From assembly GCF_006542375.1 (NCBI RefSeq), contig NZ_CP038143.1, positions 558,001-622,000 on the forward strand: 64,000 nucleotides of DNA, read 5' to 3'. This document shows, in pieces, positions 42,943 through 62,479 of this stretch (position 1 is its first letter; each line of letters starts with the position of its first letter). Source of the stretch: Oecophyllibacter saccharovorans (GTDB lineage: Bacteria > Pseudomonadota > Alphaproteobacteria > Acetobacterales > Acetobacteraceae). The position numbers were made by a program, and so were the translations under genes. The notes below the pieces were generated by a model. That model made no database searches and had not been told where the DNA came from. It saw only the letters and a program-made list of their open reading frames with translations.

Positions 42943-43019
42943 CGGAGTGTAGCTCAGCCTGGTAGAGCACTGTGTTCGGGACGCAGGGGCCGGAGGTTCG
43001 AATCCTCTCACTCCGACCA
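42943..43019 (+). tRNA. tRNA-Pro (anticodon CGG)
   Basis: A 77-base cloverleaf with encoded CCA. The acceptor stem pairs CGGAGTG (42943-42949) with CACTCCG (43009-43015); D-arm AGCTCAGCCTGGTAGAGC; anticodon stem CTGTG/CGCAG with loop TTCGGGA giving anticodon CGG; T-arm GGTTCGAATCC. A terminator follows at 43078. Confidence 0.95.
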
Positions 43020-43098: not shown

Positions 43099-43283
43099 GT
43101 GTCCTGCTCTTTCTTTCCACCTACTCCAGCGCCATATCCTTTTAAATAATTTGTTGGATGTCTGCCGGTTACCTGCTGATTTCCAGCTCTTTCAGAAGAG
43201 GTCACGCAAGGTCGTTGCCCTCTTCTGCGTTATTTTCGGCTCTGCTGCTAACCACCAGAGCGTTTTCTTCAGGAGGCTCTTCC

Positions 43284-43691
43284 ATGACCCGCAAATTCCT
43301 TTCCTCCGCTCTCGCGCTTGCCCTGGCGAGCAGCACCCTGGGTGCTTTCGCAGCCCCGAAGGCCATGGCTGAAACCGGTGGCTGCCTGAAATATGGTGCA
43401 GCCGGTGCAGCCGGCGGTCATGTCGCCCATCACCACGCCGTGCTCGGCGCCATGGCAGGCTGTGCCGTCGGCATGTACAGGCGTCACAAATTCCGCAAGG
43501 AAGCCCGTGAAAAGGCCGCTCTGTGGGACAAGGAACATCCTGATACCAAGGTGAATGAAGGCCTGTTCCACCATGAATCAACCGCCCTCATCGAGCAGAA
43601 GGCGGAATGGTATGACCAGGAGCACAACACCCAGCCCGGAACCCTCTCACAAACGTCGGCAGTTCCTAGTAATCCCACTGTTGCCCACTGA
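43284..43691 (+). CDS. Small exported protein, unknown function
   Basis: A 135-residue protein with a signal peptide (1-29, hydrophobic core SALALALASSTLGAF, cleavage near AMA). The mature N-terminus has a Gly/Ala/His-rich stretch (YGAAGAAGGHVAHHHAVLGAMAGCAVG) reminiscent of glycine-zipper outer-membrane or periplasmic proteins, with two Cys; the remainder is charged and soluble (KEAREKAALWDKEHPDTKVNE). ATG 43284 has AGGAGG eight bases upstream. I do not recognise the family. Confidence 0.75.
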   Translation: MTRKFLSSALALALASSTLGAFAAPKAMAETGGCLKYGAAGAAGGHVAHHHAVLGAMAGCAVGMYRRHKFRKEAREKAALWDKEHPDTKVNEGLFHHESTALIEQKAEWYDQEHNTQPGTLSQTSAVPSNPTVAH

Positions 43692-44032
43692 AAGCAGAAT
43701 TTCGGCCACGACTTTTAAAATCCGCTAAATAATTTTAAAATCCACGTCTTCTAAAGGGAAGCGTGGATTTTTAAATCGAGCTTACACTATTTTATTAATC
43801 TCTATATTCAAACAGGATCTACTTTCTGTCTTCTTGTGTCTTAATGAGACCCCAACGTTTTTCCAAAAGGGATATTCCTACCAGAAATACTAAAGCTGTC
43901 CGCCTAATACGATTAAATAATTTTAATATTATATATTCTAAATTAAGTTCTAGTTAGCTTCAACATCATTAAATTTACCTCTATTATAAAAATAATAGGT
44001 CAATATTAATTATCAACAGAAAAGGTGTAAAA
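43692..44032. other. AT-rich intergenic region before the FkbH-like gene
   Basis: 341 bases of AT-rich sequence with no gene. It holds a terminator-like hairpin (43737-43772) and several possible -10 boxes (TATATT, TATTAT) ahead of the FkbH-like gene. The composition change from the left flank is abrupt. Confidence 0.5.
43737..43772 (+). terminator. Rho-independent terminator
   Basis: AAAATCCACG (43737-43746) pairs with CGTGGATTTT (43762-43771), extended by an inner CTTC/GAAG stem; T-run at the 3' end. It ends the small exported-protein transcript. Confidence 0.75.
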
Positions 44033-45793
44033 ATGACCGAAGCAGTAAGATTGGTTATTTGGGATTTAGACGATACGTTTTGGAAAGGAACTCTTGCCGA
44101 AGAAGGTATCGATAGTAATCACCATTATGGAGCAATCGTCCGCGAGTTAAACAAACGGGGTATAATGAACTCCATTTGCTCTAAAAACGATTTCTCAAAA
44201 GCTAAGACTGAACTAGAAAAGCTGGGCATATGGGATCAGTTCATCTTCCCCTCAATTGACTGGACCCCCAAAGGGGCAAGAGTAGAAAATATTATAAATA
44301 AAGTTAAATTAAGACCAGAATCAATAATGTTTATAGATGATAATCCTCTCAATCGAGAGGAAATTAAATCTCTACTTCCAAAAGTTCAAGTTAAAGATGA
44401 AAATTTCATTCCCAATATCCTTCAGAGTGAAGCGTTTATAGGAAAAGAAGATTCCAATCTTAAACGCCTTGCTAATTACAAGTTAATGGAAACCAAGGAT
44501 CAAGCAGCTGTTGAATCGCAGGGAGACAATTCTGATTTTCTAAGAAACAGTAATATATCTGTTGAGCTAGATTATAATATTAATGATAATATTGATCGTC
44601 TTATTGAGATTATAAATAGAACAAATCAGTTAAATTTTACAAAAAATAGGCTATCTGATGATATTAATGTGGCAAGAGCAGAAGCAAAGGCCCTTTTAGA
44701 GGGGGGATTATTTGAAACCTTAGCCTTTGTAAGGGTTAGAGATAGGTTTGGAGATTATGGAATAGTAGGATTTTTCCATCAAATCCACCATTCAACCGAA
44801 AATAAACTTAAGAATTTTTGCTTCTCCTGCAGAGTATTGGGAATGCATATTGAGACTTGGTTGTATAATCAACTTGGGCGCCCAGAACTCAATATTGTTG
44901 GGGAAGTCGCCAACAATCCATTGACAGATAATAGTGTCATAGACTGGATTAGCTGGTATGAAAATTCTCCAGAGAATTCGACTCTGGTATCTAATGGTGA
45001 GTTTGAAAAAAGGCCTCCTATAGTTATAAGCGGAGGCTGCGAATCCGAATCCCTCCAACATTATATTGGTCACTCAACAAATGATTTCAGGCTCTTTAGT
45101 GGAACGGTACGCGATAATTTTATAATAAGACGTGATCATTCCTCAATGGTGCGGATAGCAGCTGAAAATGATCAGCCGGCTCAAGAAAAATTAATCCAAG
45201 TGGGTTATAAAAATGAAGATTTTGAACTGTCTTTTGATCATTTAAAAGATGCATTAATAATTTTATCATTTTGGGCAGACATTCCTTTTAAGATTCATGC
45301 CTTGAGCGGGCTTTCTGCCTCTGCGCCTTATATCCCTCCTGGAGTAGGCTATGGTAATTTCCAAGAGATTTTTGAAGACGATTATTATGCCCGCGGCGGG
45401 AAAGAAGAATTCGTCTCTGAGTTCAGGTTTGCTAAAGCAAATTTAAAATATAAAGGCCATATAGATTGCGTTGAATTCAAGGAAAATTTAAATCGGATAC
45501 TATCTAAGATAGATCCCTCAAATAAAGTCATATTTCTTTTGCCCGCTTTGAATGTGCCTGATCCTCACCCAGAATGGGGGTATTTAGACCGCGCACGGTT
45601 GATCTATGCTTGTCAGATCGAGGTTAGTTATCATTGGCCTAATGTAGAATGTGTGAAATTTGACGACTTTCTCGCTTCTCCCTCTGAAGCAACTAATTAC
45701 GATCATTTCCTACGTATTGTTTACCAAAGGTGTGGTTTGCATTTAAGAGATGTTTATATGAAGCACATTGCACAACTAAAGAACATGCGTTAA
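44033..45793 (+). CDS. FkbH-like HAD-superfamily protein (AT-rich, probably acquired)
   Basis: A 586-residue multidomain protein. The N-terminal HAD domain has WDLDDTFWKGTL (nucleophile candidates D11 and D13), later FIDDNPLNREEI, both typical of the FkbH/HAD-IIIC group that loads glyceryl units from 1,3-bisphosphoglycerate onto carrier proteins or acts in surface-glycan synthesis. A GNAT-like part follows (about 175-300: RTNQLNFTKNRLS and RDRFGDYGIVGFF with CRVLGMHIETWLYNQL). The last 270 residues look like a separate alpha/beta domain. Base composition is strikingly AT-rich compared with both neighbours, which suggests recent transfer. No acyl carrier protein or synthase is nearby, so the partner is unknown. 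Confidence 0.8.
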   Translation: MTEAVRLVIWDLDDTFWKGTLAEEGIDSNHHYGAIVRELNKRGIMNSICSKNDFSKAKTELEKLGIWDQFIFPSIDWTPKGARVENIINKVKLRPESIMFIDDNPLNREEIKSLLPKVQVKDENFIPNILQSEAFIGKEDSNLKRLANYKLMETKDQAAVESQGDNSDFLRNSNISVELDYNINDNIDRLIEIINRTNQLNFTKNRLSDDINVARAEAKALLEGGLFETLAFVRVRDRFGDYGIVGFFHQIHHSTENKLKNFCFSCRVLGMHIETWLYNQLGRPELNIVGEVANNPLTDNSVIDWISWYENSPENSTLVSNGEFEKRPPIVISGGCESESLQHYIGHSTNDFRLFSGTVRDNFIIRRDHSSMVRIAAENDQPAQEKLIQVGYKNEDFELSFDHLKDALIILSFWADIPFKIHALSGLSASAPYIPPGVGYGNFQEIFEDDYYARGGKEEFVSEFRFAKANLKYKGHIDCVEFKENLNRILSKIDPSNKVIFLLPALNVPDPHPEWGYLDRARLIYACQIEVSYHWPNVECVKFDDFLASPSEATNYDHFLRIVYQRCGLHLRDVYMKHIAQLKNMR

Positions 45794-45802
45794 ATTCCCA
45801 TT

Positions 45803-45832
45803 GAGAAGTCTTAGAATCTTAGAGGACTTCTC
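45803..45832. terminator. Hairpin between FkbH-like gene and hemH
   Basis: GAGAAGTC (45803-45810) pairs with GACTTCTC (45825-45832) between two convergent genes. It could terminate both transcripts. Confidence 0.55.
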
Positions 45833-45849
45833 TTCTCTCACTCAAATAT

Positions 45850-46893
45850 TTAGTCATTCCTAAGTCCCCGCATGGCCTGACGGCTCAGCCCGGCAAGAAG
45901 CGCGATGGCCTGTGGGGTGGCATTGAGGCAGGGCACGTAGGCGAAATTCTTGCCGCCTGCCTGCAGGAAAGCTTCACGCAGCTCATGATCGAGTTCATCG
46001 AGTGTTTCGATGCAATCTGTCATGAAGCCCGGGGCAATCACTGCGATATCCTTTATACCCTGTTGCGCCAGGGCAGTGACGGTCGGCAGCGTATAAGGCT
46101 TTAGCCATTCCGCTGGACCGAAGCGGGACTGGTAGGTCAGCAGAACTTGCTGGGGCGGCATATCCAGCACAGCTGACAGCGCCTTGACGGTCAGGGCACA
46201 TTCGCGCGGGTAGGGATCACCGGCGGTCACATAGGATTTCGGCAGGCCATGAAAGGACACGACCAGCCGCTGCGGCGTGAAGGACAGGCGTGACCAGCAC
46301 TCGCGCACGCTCTGGGCCAATGCCCCGATATAGGCCGGATCGTCGGCAAAAGGCGGCACCGTGACGATGGCAGGTTGGCACCGCAGCCGCATGAGATGGC
46401 GGAACACCTGGTCATTGGCAGTGGCCGTCGTGGTTGCGGAATATTGCGGATACATCGGCAGACAGACGATGCGGTCGCAACCCTGCGCCAACAGGCTGTC
46501 CAGTCCCTGACTGATGGATGGCGTGCCGTAGCGCATTCCCCAGCTTACCGGTGTCTGCGGCCCCAGCTCTTTCGCCAGTCCTTCCGCCTGGGCGCGGGTG
46601 ATGACGGTCAGAGGGGAAGCGTTATGTGTCCGGTCCCAGATACGGGCGTAATTGGCACCGCTCCGGAAAGGACGCGTGGCCAGCACCATGCCATGCAGAA
46701 TCGGTTTCCACAGCCACGGCGTCATCTCGATCACACGGCGATCGGACAGAAATTCCCCCAGGTAACGCCGCACTGAAAAATAATCCGTGCCGCTCGGTGT
46801 CCCGAGATTGATGAGCAGCACGCCTACCCGCCCGTTGGGGGGAACAGGCTCATGTGGCGGATGATGAATAAAGGGAGACAGGCCTCCGCTCAT
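45850..46893 (-). CDS. hemH: Ferrochelatase
   Basis: Inserts Fe2+ into protoporphyrin IX, the last step of heme synthesis, which supplies the cytochromes encoded elsewhere in the window. The 347-residue product has VGVLLINLGTPSGTDYFSVRRYLGEFLSDRRV, the active-site His segment VVSFHGLPKSYV, and the metal-side acidic segment DCIETLDELDHE. Its start overlaps the asd stop by four bases (ATGA). Confidence 0.96.
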   Translation of the reverse strand: MSGGLSPFIHHPPHEPVPPNGRVGVLLINLGTPSGTDYFSVRRYLGEFLSDRRVIEMTPWLWKPILHGMVLATRPFRSGANYARIWDRTHNASPLTVITRAQAEGLAKELGPQTPVSWGMRYGTPSISQGLDSLLAQGCDRIVCLPMYPQYSATTTATANDQVFRHLMRLRCQPAIVTVPPFADDPAYIGALAQSVRECWSRLSFTPQRLVVSFHGLPKSYVTAGDPYPRECALTVKALSAVLDMPPQQVLLTYQSRFGPAEWLKPYTLPTVTALAQQGIKDIAVIAPGFMTDCIETLDELDHELREAFLQAGGKNFAYVPCLNATPQAIALLAGLSRQAMRGLRND

Positions 46894-48413: not shown

Positions 48414-49163
48414 TCAGGAGGACAGGAAATGTTTCTTGAAGAAAGCTGACACATGGTGGCGCAGTTTTTCGCTTGCCACTTTCTGCGGGCGATGCATGTA
48501 GTTGAGCTGCACACTGCGCCGCGGCCCCACATATTCCCGGTGCCCGTGCCAGCTGGCCGGATGATTGGGGAAGGCAACCAGCGTGCCCCCATAAGGCGGA
48601 ATCTCGGCCTCGTAATCCTCCATGTCATGGGGACCGTTCAGAAAACGCAGGCACCCTGCATGATCGGGCCAGGCCTGCTCGCGCGGATTGAGGTAAAGCA
48701 ACAGGGTGACCCATTTGGAAGGGCTGTCGAGATGGATGCGCCCGTCCCTGGCCCGCGTCTGTCCCCGCAGCGTAACCATGCTGGGCGCAGCTTCCAGGTC
48801 CAGACCGAATTTGCGGCCGATCAGTTTCTTGAGCTTCGGCCCCTCGAATTCCTCCAGAAAACCCGCCAGTGCAGGGGGCACCTCAAGCGCTGAACGCGGA
48901 AAAGATCCACCTGAAGGAATTTCGGGCCACAGTGCCAGAACATGTGCCAGAACACGGGGCGGCACAAAATTCTCGACCACGAGATAAGGGCACGGAATAT
49001 CCATGACCAGCGCTCTCAGAACAGCATCATAATCGAAGGCATGCTCGAAAACCCGGTCAGCGGCGGCACGATCACGCGGAAAAGCCGTGTCTCCCCCCGC
49101 CTTTGCCGGGTGGGGGTGAGCCGGCCTGGAACCAGCCTCACTTTGTCGGGGCGTCATCGGCAT
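48414..49163 (-). CDS. 2-oxoglutarate/Fe(II)-dependent oxygenase
   Basis: A 249-residue cytoplasmic oxygenase of the prolyl-hydroxylase-like (P4Hc) type. The iron-binding HxD is in RIHLDSPSKW, the distal His in NHPASWHGHREY, and the 2-oxoglutarate Arg in RRSVQLNYM. LLLYLNP and GGTLVAF are the usual barrel strands. The first 35 residues are polar and disordered. The substrate is unknown; such enzymes can modify proteins or small molecules. Confidence 0.82.
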   Translation of the reverse strand: MPMTPRQSEAGSRPAHPHPAKAGGDTAFPRDRAAADRVFEHAFDYDAVLRALVMDIPCPYLVVENFVPPRVLAHVLALWPEIPSGGSFPRSALEVPPALAGFLEEFEGPKLKKLIGRKFGLDLEAAPSMVTLRGQTRARDGRIHLDSPSKWVTLLLYLNPREQAWPDHAGCLRFLNGPHDMEDYEAEIPPYGGTLVAFPNHPASWHGHREYVGPRRSVQLNYMHRPQKVASEKLRHHVSAFFKKHFLSS

Positions 49164-58548: not shown

Positions 58549-59322
58549 ATGACCGACCACAGCATCACTGGAAAAACCGTGCTGATTGCCGGGGGCGCCA
58601 AAAATCTGGGGGGTCTGTTGGCGCGTGATCTGGCACAGCATGGCGCCAGAGCGGTTGCTGTCCACTACAACAGTGACGCCTCAAAAGCGGAAGCCGATAA
58701 AACAGTTGCAGCCATCGAAGCGGCGGGCGCAAAGGCTTTTGCCTTCCAGGCTGACCTTACCAGTGCCGCAGCGATGGAGAAGCTGTTCACCCAGGCCAAG
58801 GAAGCAATGGGCAGCATTGATATCGCCGTCAATACCGTTGGCAAAGTGCTGAAAAAGCCGATGGTAGAAATCAGCGAAGCTGAATTTGACGAAATGAATG
58901 CTGTCAATTCCAAGACGGCCTTTTTCTTTCTCAAAGAAGCCGGCCGAACAGTAAGCGACAACGGCAAAATCTGCTCCCTCGTCACTTCGCTTCTGGGAGC
59001 CTATACCCCCTTCTATGCGGCCTACGCCGGCACCAAGGCGCCTGTCGAGCATTATACCCGTGCGGCCTCGAAAGAACTGGGAGAGCGCGGGATCTCCGTG
59101 ACAGCGATCGGGCCCGGGCCGATGGATACACCGTTTTTCTATCCTGCCGAAGGTGCGGATGCCGTGCAGTACCACAAAACCGCCGCGGCTTTGTCGCCCT
59201 TCTCCAAGACCGGCCTGACTGACATTGAAGATATCGTGCCCTTCATCCGCTTCCTCGTCTCCGAAGGCTGGTGGATGACCGGTCAGACTATTTTAGTGAA
59301 TGGGGGCTATACAACAAAATAA
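58549..59322 (+). CDS. Short-chain dehydrogenase/reductase
   Basis: A 257-residue classical SDR oxidoreductase. The nucleotide motif is IAGGAKNLGG (residues 13-22), an NAG-like motif follows at AVNTVG, and the catalytic Y159-x3-K163 pair is present with a Ser at 147. AGGAG lies six bases before the ATG. The substrate is unknown. It is the only ordinary-composition gene between the HTH module and the AT-rich gene. Confidence 0.88.
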   Translation: MTDHSITGKTVLIAGGAKNLGGLLARDLAQHGARAVAVHYNSDASKAEADKTVAAIEAAGAKAFAFQADLTSAAAMEKLFTQAKEAMGSIDIAVNTVGKVLKKPMVEISEAEFDEMNAVNSKTAFFFLKEAGRTVSDNGKICSLVTSLLGAYTPFYAAYAGTKAPVEHYTRAASKELGERGISVTAIGPGPMDTPFFYPAEGADAVQYHKTAAALSPFSKTGLTDIEDIVPFIRFLVSEGWWMTGQTILVNGGYTTK

Positions 59323-59410
59323 AGCCTAAAATTGAAAAAATTCCTTATCCCTTCTAAATAAGCACCCGTTCGATTCTTACAACACAAATTTCATAAAGAT
59401 CCAAGCCAAA

Positions 59411-60679
59411 ATGATAATCTACAATGGTAATGAGTTAGTCCTTCATAAGGTAGCGGGAGAGAGCAATTTTACCCTTATTACCTTTATGGGGGTAAATTAT
59501 CATGATAGAGCTATGAACTTATTTTTTCTTGAAAAACTCTCAAAAAAATATAAATTCAATTGTTATGGCATCACTACAAAGAAGCCTAATTGGTATATTT
59601 CCAGTGAAATTGACGAAATAGCAAGAATAATTGAATTAGACGGGGATTACAATATTAGGATTCTTGCAGGTCCCTCAATGGGGGGATTTGCTGCTATAAA
59701 ATTTTCTCGGCTGTTTAAAGCAGATATAGTCTTCGCTATGGCTCCTCAATATACTATTGATCCAGATATTGAAAGTAAATTCAATAATTATAGTCAATTT
59801 TATAATGACAGCATGTCAAATATGACTATAAGCAATAATGATTTAAGAGGAAAAATATTTATTGCTGTCGATCCTTATGATAAAATAGATTATTACCATT
59901 CTAAGAAAATTTTAGACCTTTCAGATAGTGGATTTGAGATTAATATAATACCTGTGTTTTATGCTGAACATATAGTCTATAATGATATATCTGGATCGGA
60001 CTCATTTAAAGAGATAATTTTAGCATTGAGTACTATGGATAATAGTAAAATTAATCTATCTGTTAGTAAGTCAAGGAGAAGAAATAACTATAATCTTATT
60101 AAAAGACTTAATCTATATAATAAAAATTTATATTTACAATCTTTATCTTTGTTAAGTGATAAAATTCATAATAAAGAACGCATCTATGCTAATCATAGTT
60201 ATATCTTAAAGAAAATACATGGACTATGCTTATTAAAGCGTTATGATCTTGCTCTTAGAATGAAGAATAAGCTTTTTTATAATTTTCTTTATTATAAAAT
60301 TCCTCAGAATATGGGTTTTAAAAATTTCCCTAGATTAATAATTGATTGTCATGGAAAAGTCATATGTTTTAACCATAAATGTGAATGTTTAGAATCAAGA
60401 GAGTTTGGAGATCAAAAACATTTATCACCTCTTTCTTTATATAGTATTGGAAATAAAAATTACTTGTTTTTTTGGTTTGAAGATGAAAGAGTATTTTTAT
60501 ATGTAAATGAACGGAAATCTTTATCTTTCTCGAGCGAAATTAATATGTCATCTCTTTGTTTAAATATTGATAATAGTTTAATATTTACCTCGTACGGTTA
60601 TTTAAGGAGTAATTTCGATGGGAGTGTATTCTTGTTTTCTGAAAATAAGCTCGAATGGGAAAAATTTGTTTTTGTTTAA
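59411..60679 (+). CDS. AT-rich alpha/beta-hydrolase-like protein, function unknown
   Basis: A 422-residue protein of very AT-rich coding sequence, unlike its neighbours. The N-terminal 210 residues look like an alpha/beta-hydrolase: nucleophile elbow GPSMGGFAA with S89, an acidic turn AVDPYDK (D154/D157) and H187 in FYAEHIVY. The rest is rich in Asn, Lys, Tyr and Ile and I do not recognise it; LIIDCHGKVICFN near 310 looks like the start of a beta-rich domain. The reading frame continues for 86 codons after the stop at 60677-60679. Probably acquired by transfer. Confidence 0.65.
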   Translation: MIIYNGNELVLHKVAGESNFTLITFMGVNYHDRAMNLFFLEKLSKKYKFNCYGITTKKPNWYISSEIDEIARIIELDGDYNIRILAGPSMGGFAAIKFSRLFKADIVFAMAPQYTIDPDIESKFNNYSQFYNDSMSNMTISNNDLRGKIFIAVDPYDKIDYYHSKKILDLSDSGFEINIIPVFYAEHIVYNDISGSDSFKEIILALSTMDNSKINLSVSKSRRRNNYNLIKRLNLYNKNLYLQSLSLLSDKIHNKERIYANHSYILKKIHGLCLLKRYDLALRMKNKLFYNFLYYKIPQNMGFKNFPRLIIDCHGKVICFNHKCECLESREFGDQKHLSPLSLYSIGNKNYLFFWFEDERVFLYVNERKSLSFSSEINMSSLCLNIDNSLIFTSYGYLRSNFDGSVFLFSENKLEWEKFVFV

Positions 60680-60940
60680 CATTTTTATTATTTATTATCG
60701 ACACGGCACGATAGAATAAGAGAACAGTTTCTAACCAATATTGACCCTAAATATCGTTCTATAACAGGTAATCTCTCCCAAATTATACTTGCAATAGCAT
60801 ATACTTGGATTAGAGGCCATCTAAAATCAAACAGTATTCTTGGAAAAATAGATTTTACATTATCTTTAGAGCCGTTTAGTTCCGGTCTCTTCTTATTTGA
60901 GTTAAGGTTACCTCCTAAAAAAGCAAGAAATTTGACTTAA
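60680..60940 (+). pseudogene. In-frame continuation after the AT-rich gene, possible truncated 3' part
   Basis: Immediately after the TAA at 60677 the same frame stays open for 86 codons (ending TAA 60938) and contains no ATG, GTG or other clear internal start. In such AT-rich sequence a run this long without a stop is unlikely by chance. It may be the C-terminal end of the preceding gene cut off by a nonsense change, or a remnant of another gene. It has no motif that I recognise (for example TRHDRIREQFLTNIDPKY near the start). Confidence 0.35.
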
Positions 60941-61239
60941 ATTACTTTAACAAGCCTATAAAACTCTCCAATATGGTGGGCCGTTCATTTTTGTTGAGCT
61001 CCATTTTGACCGGAAACGCTTCAATCTAGGTCAGAATAAGAAATACTTGCCAAGGCATAATCCACTCTTACCACTTCTGAAAATCTGGTATCTGTAGAAC
61101 GCTATGAAATGTTACTCAAAGAAATGAGCTTTATCCGTATAAAGCCTTTTATGCTGATATGAATTAGCCTCGTCTAAGGGCCTTAAGGTTTTCTGATTCA
61201 TCAACCGCATAAGTCTTCTATTACCGTCGCCTTAGCCTG
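60941..61239. other. AT-rich gene-free stretch
   Basis: 299 bases with stops in all frames and no motif I recognise. It may be decayed DNA between the transferred gene and the orphan membrane protein. Confidence 0.4.
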
Positions 61240-61662
61240 TCACTTTACCTCTGACTGTACTTTCGGTCCGGTTTTCGTCCAGACGTAAAGAATTGCTAAG
61301 GGTCCAAGCAAGGGAGAAGCCACCCAGAGCAGTGCATTCCAGACTATGCTGAGCGGGACGATGATGACAATCGGCATTATCAGTATGGTTTTGCCGAGTA
61401 TGAAAGCTTTTATCTGATCCCAGATGTATCTGGAAAACGGATACAGAAAAAAGCACAGCAGGCAAAGGAGAGAGAGACCTATATCGCCTCCGATGTGGCG
61501 AACACTTAAATTTTCTCTCTTCATAATTTCGGTAAATATTACCGCATATATTATAATGAGATATATAAAACTGAAGAAATAGGCTCTCTTCATAAAAGGT
61601 GGTGGAAAGTATTCGAATATCCTTTGAACCCTATTTCTCAAGGTATTCCGTTGTTCTGTCAT
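61240..61662 (-). CDS. Hypothetical membrane protein, four helices
   Basis: A 140-residue protein with about four hydrophobic segments (YFFSFIYLIIIYAVIF; LSLLCLLCFFLYPF; ILIMPIVIIVPLSIVW; LLWVASPLLGPLAILYVW). A GGAGAG sits directly upstream of ATG 61662, supporting a real gene. Composition is intermediate between the AT-rich block and the chromosome. No family recognised. Confidence 0.6.
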   Translation of the reverse strand: MTEQRNTLRNRVQRIFEYFPPPFMKRAYFFSFIYLIIIYAVIFTEIMKRENLSVRHIGGDIGLSLLCLLCFFLYPFSRYIWDQIKAFILGKTILIMPIVIIVPLSIVWNALLWVASPLLGPLAILYVWTKTGPKVQSEVK

Positions 61663-61723
61663 CTCTCCACCTCACAGCCGAACGCCCGCTGCCTCTTTAT
61701 ATCCTGTCTTGGGACCAGAATCT

Positions 61724-62479
61724 TCAAACCGGGGTAATCCGTCTCAAAGTCAGATTCAGCCGCCCGCCTAGGTCCAGTGGATCAGTTCCCGTCCCCCGAT
61801 TGCCGGGCTGACGGAGTTTCAGCAACCGGGGCACCCCATGCAATGACAGGCGACTGGCGCCCCCAAAAGCGATGATATCCCCGGAATCGAGGCGCACTTT
61901 GTGAATGCGTCCGTTCGGATCCTGAGTACGGCCGTTATCAGGATCCGCGATACGGAAGGTGGCGCTGCGGCCGAGCGACAGGGAGACGATGGGAAGCTCC
62001 CGCGCTGCTTCCCCATTATCCCGGTGCAGCCCCATATGTGCGTCTTCACTGTACCAATTGACCAGGCAGCAATCAGGCGGCGGCAGGGGTTCACTTCCCC
62101 TTCCCGCCTCCCGCCAGTAGGGAAGCGTGAAATGTTGCCAGAGGCCCAGCAGGAAGTCAGGAATCGGCGGCCAGGGCTGCTGGGTTTTGGGGTGAACGGG
62201 CTGATAACGCGCCCCGCGACGTTCGGAAACCCAGCCAAGCGGGCCAAGATTGGTCATGCGTACGCTGAAAGGAACGCCGCTTGCCGGCGAGCCGGGGCGT
62301 TCAGGCATATAGGGCCGGAAGAAGGGCGCCTCTTTCAGGCGCTCCCGCAGGTCTGCCACCACACTTTCCTGCTCCGGCAGGCTCAGTGCCTCCGGTGCAT
62401 GCCATACGCCGGGGGGCAGTTCGACACCGGGGAACTGAGAGCCGGCCTCTGGAAACAGTGAAAGTGAATTGGCACCCAT
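61724..62479 (-). CDS. alkB: AlkB-family DNA/RNA dealkylase
   Basis: A 251-residue 2OG-Fe(II) dioxygenase that directly reverses alkylation damage. The iron and cofactor residues are clear: NWYSEDAHMGLHRDN (HxD), SLSLGRSATF, GDIIAFGGASRLSLHGV with the distal His, and RLNLTLRR with the 2-oxoglutarate Arg. Length is slightly over the E. coli protein (216). It is not next to ada; a terminator separates it from hdeD upstream. Confidence 0.93.
   Translation of the reverse strand: MGANSLSLFPEAGSQFPGVELPPGVWHAPEALSLPEQESVVADLRERLKEAPFFRPYMPERPGSPASGVPFSVRMTNLGPLGWVSERRGARYQPVHPKTQQPWPPIPDFLLGLWQHFTLPYWREAGRGSEPLPPPDCCLVNWYSEDAHMGLHRDNGEAARELPIVSLSLGRSATFRIADPDNGRTQDPNGRIHKVRLDSGDIIAFGGASRLSLHGVPRLLKLRQPGNRGTGTDPLDLGGRLNLTLRRITPV

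Follow-up and report, generated by a model that had tools for sequence, protein, structure and literature searches.

A gene on the forward strand at positions 44033–45793 of the window, the 64,000-bp stretch of the Oecophyllibacter saccharovorans chromosome analyzed here, encodes a 586-residue protein in which an FkbH core is joined to a predicted SGNH-type domain with cysteine in place of the catalytic serine. The protein is tentatively proposed, with confidence just short of even, to be an enzyme that both activates and transfers an acyl group (glyceryl or similar) for a surface glycan within one polypeptide and that was acquired as a single-gene AT-rich islet. Within this proposal, the acyl group, its route of transfer and its acceptor are what we infer. 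The original prediction did not contain the C-terminal domain of about 260 residues, which is the main clue to function, nor a second AT-rich islet at 58.8–61.9 kb.

The reading frame starts with ATG and runs without internal stop. Residues 4–281 match the FkbH family TIGR01686 (NCBIfam) with 173.6 bits (E 5.7e-51; cut-off 146.65 bits), which bears out the original prediction of an FkbH-like gene with a HAD and a GNAT-like part. The HAD-IIIC family TIGR01681 of NCBIfam also matches, and searching Pfam with the full protein returned sub-threshold matches only, to two HAD families and DUF2608. When six other proteins of the same architecture, termed FkbH-SGNH here, were scanned with TIGR01686, three (L121, L010, and L019) stayed under the cut-off. 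The HAD-IIIC domain (residues 1–140; 44033–44452, forward strand) carries D11xD13xT15, K80, D102, and D103. Its predicted model (residues 4–140) finds its best solved match in BF1531 (3slr; Z 17.4 over 137 residues, 27% identity), and the fold matches include MDP-1, YrbI/KdsC-type and KDN-9-phosphate phosphatases. The part that follows (residues 141–310; 44453–44962, forward strand), which we take to be GNAT-like as in FkbH proteins, contains an SCR motif whose cysteine, C266 (codon 44828–44830), is the candidate thioester cysteine. Both features that mark FkbH membership, the DxDxT motif of the HAD domain and the SCR cysteine on the GNAT side, are present. In an alignment of 45 FkbH-SGNH rows and 17 rows of classical FkbH, meaning FkbH proteins whose HAD part is preceded by another domain, D11, D13, K80, D102, D103, R189, N198, Q199, N201, R206, D237, and C266 are kept in all 62 rows and T15 in 61. 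In published descriptions (excerpted text of PMC7489565), FkbH proteins load a carrier with glyceryl taken from 1,3-bisphosphoglycerate, and the kept core suggests the same glyceryl loading here, onto C266.

Residues 325–586 (45005–45790, forward strand) were assigned by structure prediction. Proteins of the FkbH-SGNH type were collected as the best 80 of 155 relatives, and the structure alignments comprise the window protein and 39 of these 80 loci (translations of 520–700 aa, less than 68% mutual identity). A full-length AlphaFold model built from the window protein and 39 homologues reached pLDDT 91.3 with pTM 0.54, so that the domains are reliable but their mutual arrangement, including the position of C266 relative to C336, is not. 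Modeled alone, the C-terminal domain reached pLDDT 95.6 and pTM 0.92. This model matches GDSL and acetylxylan esterases (Z up to 13.5), PatB (Z 13.2), and OatA of Staphylococcus aureus (Z 13.1, rmsd 2.5, 149 residues). Furthermore, a sequence profile made for the domain matches PAF acetylhydrolase (PAF-AH, E 1.1e-4), where the H558 region is aligned to a DYxH stretch, and PF13472 is matched by 6 of 40 members (up to E 0.01); no Pfam family matched the window's own C-terminal domain. Predicted fold and sequence profile together indicate an SGNH domain of the acyltransferase/esterase type. Neither WcbI nor GSCFA, two Cys-SGNH families, occurs among the 50 fold matches listed for the domain, which is not taken to mean that such a match is missing. 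The N-terminal part of classical FkbH proteins, compared with the SGNH domain by hhalign, gave a match of 41–45 columns at 36–44% probability.

In the 40-row alignment (mean column identity 22%), G334, C336 (codon 45038–45040), and H558 (codon 45704–45706) are the only invariant columns of the domain. The catalytic serine of SGNH block I is absent, its place being taken by Cys336 in 40/40 rows, and the block V histidine is present as H558 in 40/40. The block V aspartate, which in SGNH enzymes stands three residues before the histidine, is absent from the window protein, which has Asn555; 11/40 members have Asp in that column, and a gappy column separates it from the histidine. Range arithmetic on the alignment with S. 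aureus OatA (residues 445–598 on 7–257), rather than a residue-by-residue reading, places C336 on S453 and H558 on H578. In OatA, the S453A and H578A variants had no esterase activity while D575A kept 10.6% (excerpted text of PMC5697884).

OatA and PatB are described as using the SGNH fold to move acyl groups onto peptidoglycan (in the part of PMC12148441 consulted), and the fusion of a Cys-SGNH domain with the OatA/PatB fold suggests direct delivery to sugar. In the proposed mechanism, the HAD domain would take 1,3-bisphosphoglycerate and remove phosphate, and Cys266 of the GNAT-like part would trap the glyceryl group in thioester linkage. From there glyceryl would move, inside the same polypeptide, to Cys336 of the SGNH-type domain, which would stand in place of a carrier protein. 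Finally, the Cys336–His558 pair would transfer it to a hydroxyl (or an amine) on the acceptor, a cytoplasmic sugar nucleotide or lipid-linked glycan. The acceptor glycan would be made by glycosyltransferases encoded elsewhere. Esterases make up most of the fold matches listed for the C-terminal domain, which could therefore remove rather than add acyl groups. Under such a scheme the protein would trim glycans, with the HAD domain dephosphorylating a sugar phosphate or an acyl phosphate, as its matches to MDP-1, YrbI/KdsC-type and KDN-9-phosphate phosphatases would fit, and the SGNH domain as an esterase or thioesterase. Trimming nevertheless appears unlikely, as the SC266R motif, R189, N198, Q199, N201, and R206 are common to classical FkbH and would not be expected in a plain phosphatase, and cysteine in place of serine would be unusual in an esterase.

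Proteins combining HAD, GNAT-like and Cys-SGNH parts are found across phyla. Two annotated members bear the names “DUF1796 family putative cysteine peptidase” and “hypothetical protein”; the former label, on the copy of Komagataeibacter saccharivorans, hides the FkbH-SGNH part by its name. In the tree, which was rooted at the midpoint for drawing only and in which long branches were flagged, the FkbH-SGNH type and classical FkbH are split at 100/100. The window protein groups first with the copies of G029 and G139 (100/100); two Gluconobacter copies and one of G072 join next (100/95), followed by that of G153 (100/96). The classical set consists of 20 loci hand-picked from matches in genomes of the same family, four of which had no called ORF and were left out of the tree and of the composition test below. 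Two loci carry both kinds of gene or a second match: in Acetobacter malorum (L018:5776–10190) an FkbH-SGNH-type gene is followed by a second FkbH gene of classical type, and in A. persici (L022) a second FkbH-like ORF was matched on the same locus.

The original prediction had found no carrier protein or synthase nearby, and indeed no carrier was found in the 22 kb around the gene (34000–56000). Its suggestion that the protein uses a carrier encoded elsewhere or a glycan lipid holds for the glycan-linked role; the implied notion that a carrier should be missing is not supported, as only 2/91 FkbH-SGNH loci have a carrier protein, at 6.8 and 7.5 kb (L015, without an ORF match, is counted among the 91). 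Among the classical loci, 9/20 have a carrier within 1.5 kb and 11/20 have none in the available flanks. In the tree, the six carrier-adjacent classical rows group together in a single clade (100/99); no carrier accompanies the remaining eleven. The absence of a linked carrier is thus a property of the FkbH-SGNH type and of part of the classical set. A carrier gene of matching AT-richness, for which a search of the genome had been suggested, was not found: the genome has only two PF00550 genes, with GC contents of 0.51 and 0.54. One of them adjoins what we take to be a fabF-like gene. The second, at L131, sits between two genes suggestive of sphingolipid synthesis, presumably AMP-ligase-like and alpha-oxoamine-synthase-like.

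These two genes leave room for glycan acylation by way of a housekeeping carrier, in which the FkbH part would load AcpP or the second carrier and the SGNH domain would use the resulting glyceryl-ACP. Such a route would agree with the description of classical FkbH as loading a carrier (excerpted text of PMC7489565), and the 11/20 classical loci without an adjacent carrier suggest that a distant one may serve there. It is weakened by the lack of carrier linkage throughout the FkbH-SGNH type and by the fused transferase domain, whose own invariant cysteine would make a carrier unnecessary, and we regard it as a doubtful alternative.

The link to glycans was assessed from the neighborhoods of 79 of 90 loci, those with at least 2 kb on both sides. 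The reference set for these counts comprised 23 proteins, not all labeled by family search and partly taken from the same loci, which then count themselves; the names PseB/C/F/G in it are presumed. A labeled glycan gene lies within 5 kb in all 28 Hymenobacter/Solirubrum loci, in 11/31 loci of other groups and in 4/20 loci of Acetobacteraceae/Acidocella (6/20 when two fusions are counted). As a rough control, a glycan gene occurred in 2/20 evenly spaced stretches of the O. saccharovorans genome. A NeuB-type gene lies within 8 kb in 18/29 Hymenobacter/Solirubrum loci. A NeuB-made sugar was rejected as the acceptor in O. saccharovorans, since no NeuB was found in its own genome (G000), nor in G029, G139, or G032.

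Fusions and close neighbors make the association more specific. The G139 copy (1024 aa) carries a fused PF13704 glycosyltransferase at residues 600–698, and the G153 copy (963 aa) is extended at its C terminus by a segment that matches Caps_synth, Gly_transf_sug and TPR weakly, below the Pfam cut-offs. The G029 copy is flanked by a PF13704 gene (42 bp upstream) and by one with weak matches to Gly_transf_sug/Caps_synth (113 bp downstream), with more glycosyltransferase genes around. One of the two G072 copies is convergent with a PF13704 gene and the other is lone, and in G249 two GT2/GT4 proteins are encoded near the FkbH-SGNH gene. The K. saccharivorans copy, which is located on a plasmid (L236:6636–9722; 1028 aa), overlaps a GT61 gene by 4 bp, followed by two further glycosyltransferase genes. 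The glycan link is therefore strong in some lineages, and the lone copy is usual in Acetobacteraceae. Homologues in GC-rich, non-biosynthetic loci with a different conserved partner would, according to the original prediction, have told against it; the outcome is mixed, in that many copies do stand alone in GC-rich housekeeping DNA, but no different conserved partner was seen, and the labeled partners are mostly glycan genes. Co-occurrence with PF13704 was discarded as evidence, as 228/249 genomes of the family have this domain; O. saccharovorans itself has six dispersed PF13704 genes. On the same chromosome, a lone AT-rich islet of similar size (L185:7800–9760, at about 1,855.8–1,857.8 kb; GC 0.38) contains a PF13704/GT92-type glycosyltransferase gene. 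In two distant lineages (L045:1–657 and L065:7255–8211), a sulfotransferase gene ends no more than 10 bp from where the FkbH-SGNH ORF begins, and on a Loktanella plasmid (L237:7968–11241) a GSCFA-domain gene comes next after the FkbH-SGNH gene, both with a GC content of 0.48 in a remainder of 0.58 (FkbH-SGNH gene excluded).

The window gene lies in an AT-rich islet of 2158 bp (43692–45849), in agreement with the island predicted at about 43700–45850. Its GC content is 0.359 (0.372 for the gene) as opposed to 0.615 for the window minus both islets, and 341 bp of GC 0.29 precede the start codon within it. By codon position, the GC content of the gene is 0.475/0.325/0.315, compared with 0.64–0.73/0.41–0.49/0.69–0.74 in five neighboring genes. 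The islet exceeds the local swing of GC, because a survey of the same chromosome in 20 evenly spaced stretches of 20 kb (398 kb in total) found one islet with GC below 0.45 over 1 kb; the window has two. It separates the 3′ ends of two convergent core genes. On its left is a small conserved ORF (43158–43691, forward strand; 177 aa as called, although the true start may be later), whose homologues adjoin hemH in L141 and L142. On its right, and convergent with the islet gene, is a hemH-like gene (45850–46893, reverse strand) with homologues in 9/10 genomes searched (own included) and the same neighbors in L141. The surrounding genes were named from sequence without family search and presumably encode a ferrochelatase-like protein (hemH), an aspartate-semialdehyde-dehydrogenase-like protein (asd), and electron-transfer-flavoprotein-like proteins; the heme and amino acid genes that the original prediction had placed here are accordingly found again. 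A gene for tRNA-Pro(cgg) (42943–43019, forward strand) is not taken as insertion point or islet boundary, since some 670 bp separate it from the left edge of the islet and relatives have it too (L141, L142, L143, and L144). A 2OG-oxygenase-like gene (48414–49163; also in L007 and L008) was considered as a linked gene and taken as unrelated, as it adjoins hemH and asd in L141, L143, and L144 regardless of the islet. At the left islet edge, a strong hairpin with a short T run (43732–43776, forward strand; 15-nt arms, 93%; −19.7 kcal/mol, z −4.95) is a possible terminator of the upstream gene; a consensus terminator scan did not list it.

A genome of the same family and another genus (G032) has the same gene order and no FkbH-SGNH homologue. 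At its locus (L141), 81 bp separate the ends of ORF177, the counterpart of the small ORF, and hemH (gene ends 10384 and 10466), compared with 2158 bp in O. saccharovorans. The order there is, with most genes named presumptively, trmB, ETF-QO, etfB, etfA, tRNA-Pro, ORF177, hemH, asd, 2OG oxygenase, and sucA. The closest homologues found, those of G029 and G139 (64% and 60% identity), are located elsewhere in their genomes, and the sites of both lack ORF177, with the hemH end 15 and 10 bp from tRNA-Pro. The near-empty site in G032 supports horizontal acquisition of the FkbH-SGNH gene as a single-gene AT-rich islet, and the transfer claimed from base composition thereby gains a comparative footing. 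Other marks of a horizontal islet were not found: the islet holds one gene only, no integrase-like ORF was seen among the ORFs called, and a direct repeat sought at its ends did not turn up.

As a lone gene, the transferred copy might be an intact passenger without a role in this host, its glycosyltransferase partners having been left behind; partner genes or fusions of some close relatives are indeed not within 5 kb here. The open frame and the kept catalytic positions speak against this, as do closest relatives of only 60–64% identity, which imply long selection or else an unsampled donor, and a mere passenger is considered improbable.

The GC content of the FkbH-SGNH gene falls below that of the flanks in 20/22 copies of Acetobacteraceae/Acidocella, by more than 0.05 in 12 (median −0.074), and none of the 22 shows a larger deficit than the window copy (−0.235). 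The corresponding medians are +0.025 for 29 Hymenobacter/Solirubrum copies, −0.024 for 36 others (six below −0.05), and −0.031 for 16 classical genes; the offsets of Acetobacteraceae/Acidocella and classical FkbH differ with a Mann-Whitney p of 0.037. Four loci were left out of this test, namely L005 (on the same contig as L126, which was retained), L008, L045, and L079. The K. saccharivorans copy runs counter to the trend, with a GC content of 0.62 in surroundings of 0.60. Phage origin gained no support: a pattern scan of viral contigs gave no relative, and phage records gave two weak matches to the HAD/GNAT part (47% and 40% coverage); PHROGs gave only a weak polynucleotide-kinase match (E 0.005). 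A role as a defense gene was likewise set aside, with no PADLOC match up to E 0.01. Reverse transcriptase genes were noted at two other places: in an AT-rich islet of the same chromosome (L193:6501–9500, at about 741.5–744.5 kb), where the product matches the defense family Drt2 (2.5e-111), and, in G072, some 6.4 kb upstream of the copy that stands alone (L128:83–2116; GC 0.43).

The second AT-rich islet of the window (58801–61900) includes a gene (59411–60679, forward strand; 422 aa, GC 0.27) with a GPSMGG motif, whose product presumably has an alpha/beta-hydrolase fold. In L020 and L006, a homologue of this gene immediately follows the FkbH-SGNH gene, and its product is a possible partner of the FkbH-SGNH protein. 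A general or obligate partnership was rejected: the hydrolase gene is present in 5/23 genomes with FkbH-SGNH and in 68/226 without (249 family genomes; Fisher p 0.48), the 23 positive genomes (best E below about 1e-38) having been hand-picked from the 99/249 with any match.

Taken together, the domain make-up (partly predicted), the invariant residues, the absence of linked carriers, the glycosyltransferase fusions and neighbors of some relatives and the insertion back the reading of a single-polypeptide acyl-activating and acyl-transferring enzyme. Against it stand the 14/20 loci of Acetobacteraceae/Acidocella without a glycan neighbor from the reference set or a glycosyltransferase fusion, the 20/31 other loci without a labeled neighbor, the replacement of the triad aspartate by Asn555, and the fact that absence of a carrier is not special to the type, given the classical loci that share it. 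As no NeuB was found in the genome, the acceptor there cannot be a NeuB-made sugar. That the gene is a stranded fragment of a polyketide or peptide cluster, an FkbH extender-unit enzyme as its name, usual role and AT-rich foreign DNA might suggest, is very improbable in view of the 100/100 branch that parts it from carrier-adjacent FkbH, the lack of carrier linkage and the different domain order.

More broadly, and with lower confidence, we entertain the possibility of a carrier-free decoration of glycans with glyceric acid (or a close relative), in which a single protein would form the acyl thioester out of a glycolytic intermediate and deliver it by its Cys-SGNH transferase. Such a protein would occur across phyla and would sometimes be fused to the acceptor-making glycosyltransferase; in acetic acid bacteria and related groups its gene would travel alone, as AT-rich DNA, and might alter there which type of surface glycan is made. 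If this is true, FkbH chemistry would not be bound to carrier proteins or antibiotic-type assembly lines, and a stand-alone version of FkbH would feed 1,3-bisphosphoglycerate from central metabolism straight into surface glycans. A function would then be assigned to a widespread protein type, and the predictions would be two acyl-cysteine intermediates and, in Hymenobacter and acetic acid bacteria, envelope glycans that carry glycerate as an ester or amide.

FkbH cores and SGNH transferases are each already known. For their fusion, with FkbH first, a cysteine at the nucleophile position and glycosyltransferase fusions, no description was found in the open-access literature searched. With the FkbH proteins of polyketide and peptide clusters (TIGR01686), which form glyceryl-ACP from 1,3-bisphosphoglycerate, the window protein has in common the HAD-IIIC and GNAT-like core, the DxDxT motif and the SCR cysteine; in contrast to them, it has no N-terminal domain before the HAD part and no linked carrier, and it carries the C-terminal Cys-SGNH domain. 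BF1531 of Bacteroides fragilis (3slr, uncharacterized) has about 220 residues before its HAD domain, whereas the window protein starts with it. That an FkbH-domain gene can lie among surface-glycan genes has a precedent in cj1302 of the flagellar glycosylation region of Campylobacter jejuni (excerpted text of PMC7099621), although the likeness is one of setting only. With OatA and PatB, the protein shares the predicted SGNH fold, and by the range arithmetic C336 and H558 occupy the positions of the catalytic serine and histidine of OatA. It differs from both in having cysteine for serine and in being fused to an FkbH-type activating module, whereas OatA and PatB are described as paired with a membrane acyltransferase (in the part of PMC12148441 consulted).
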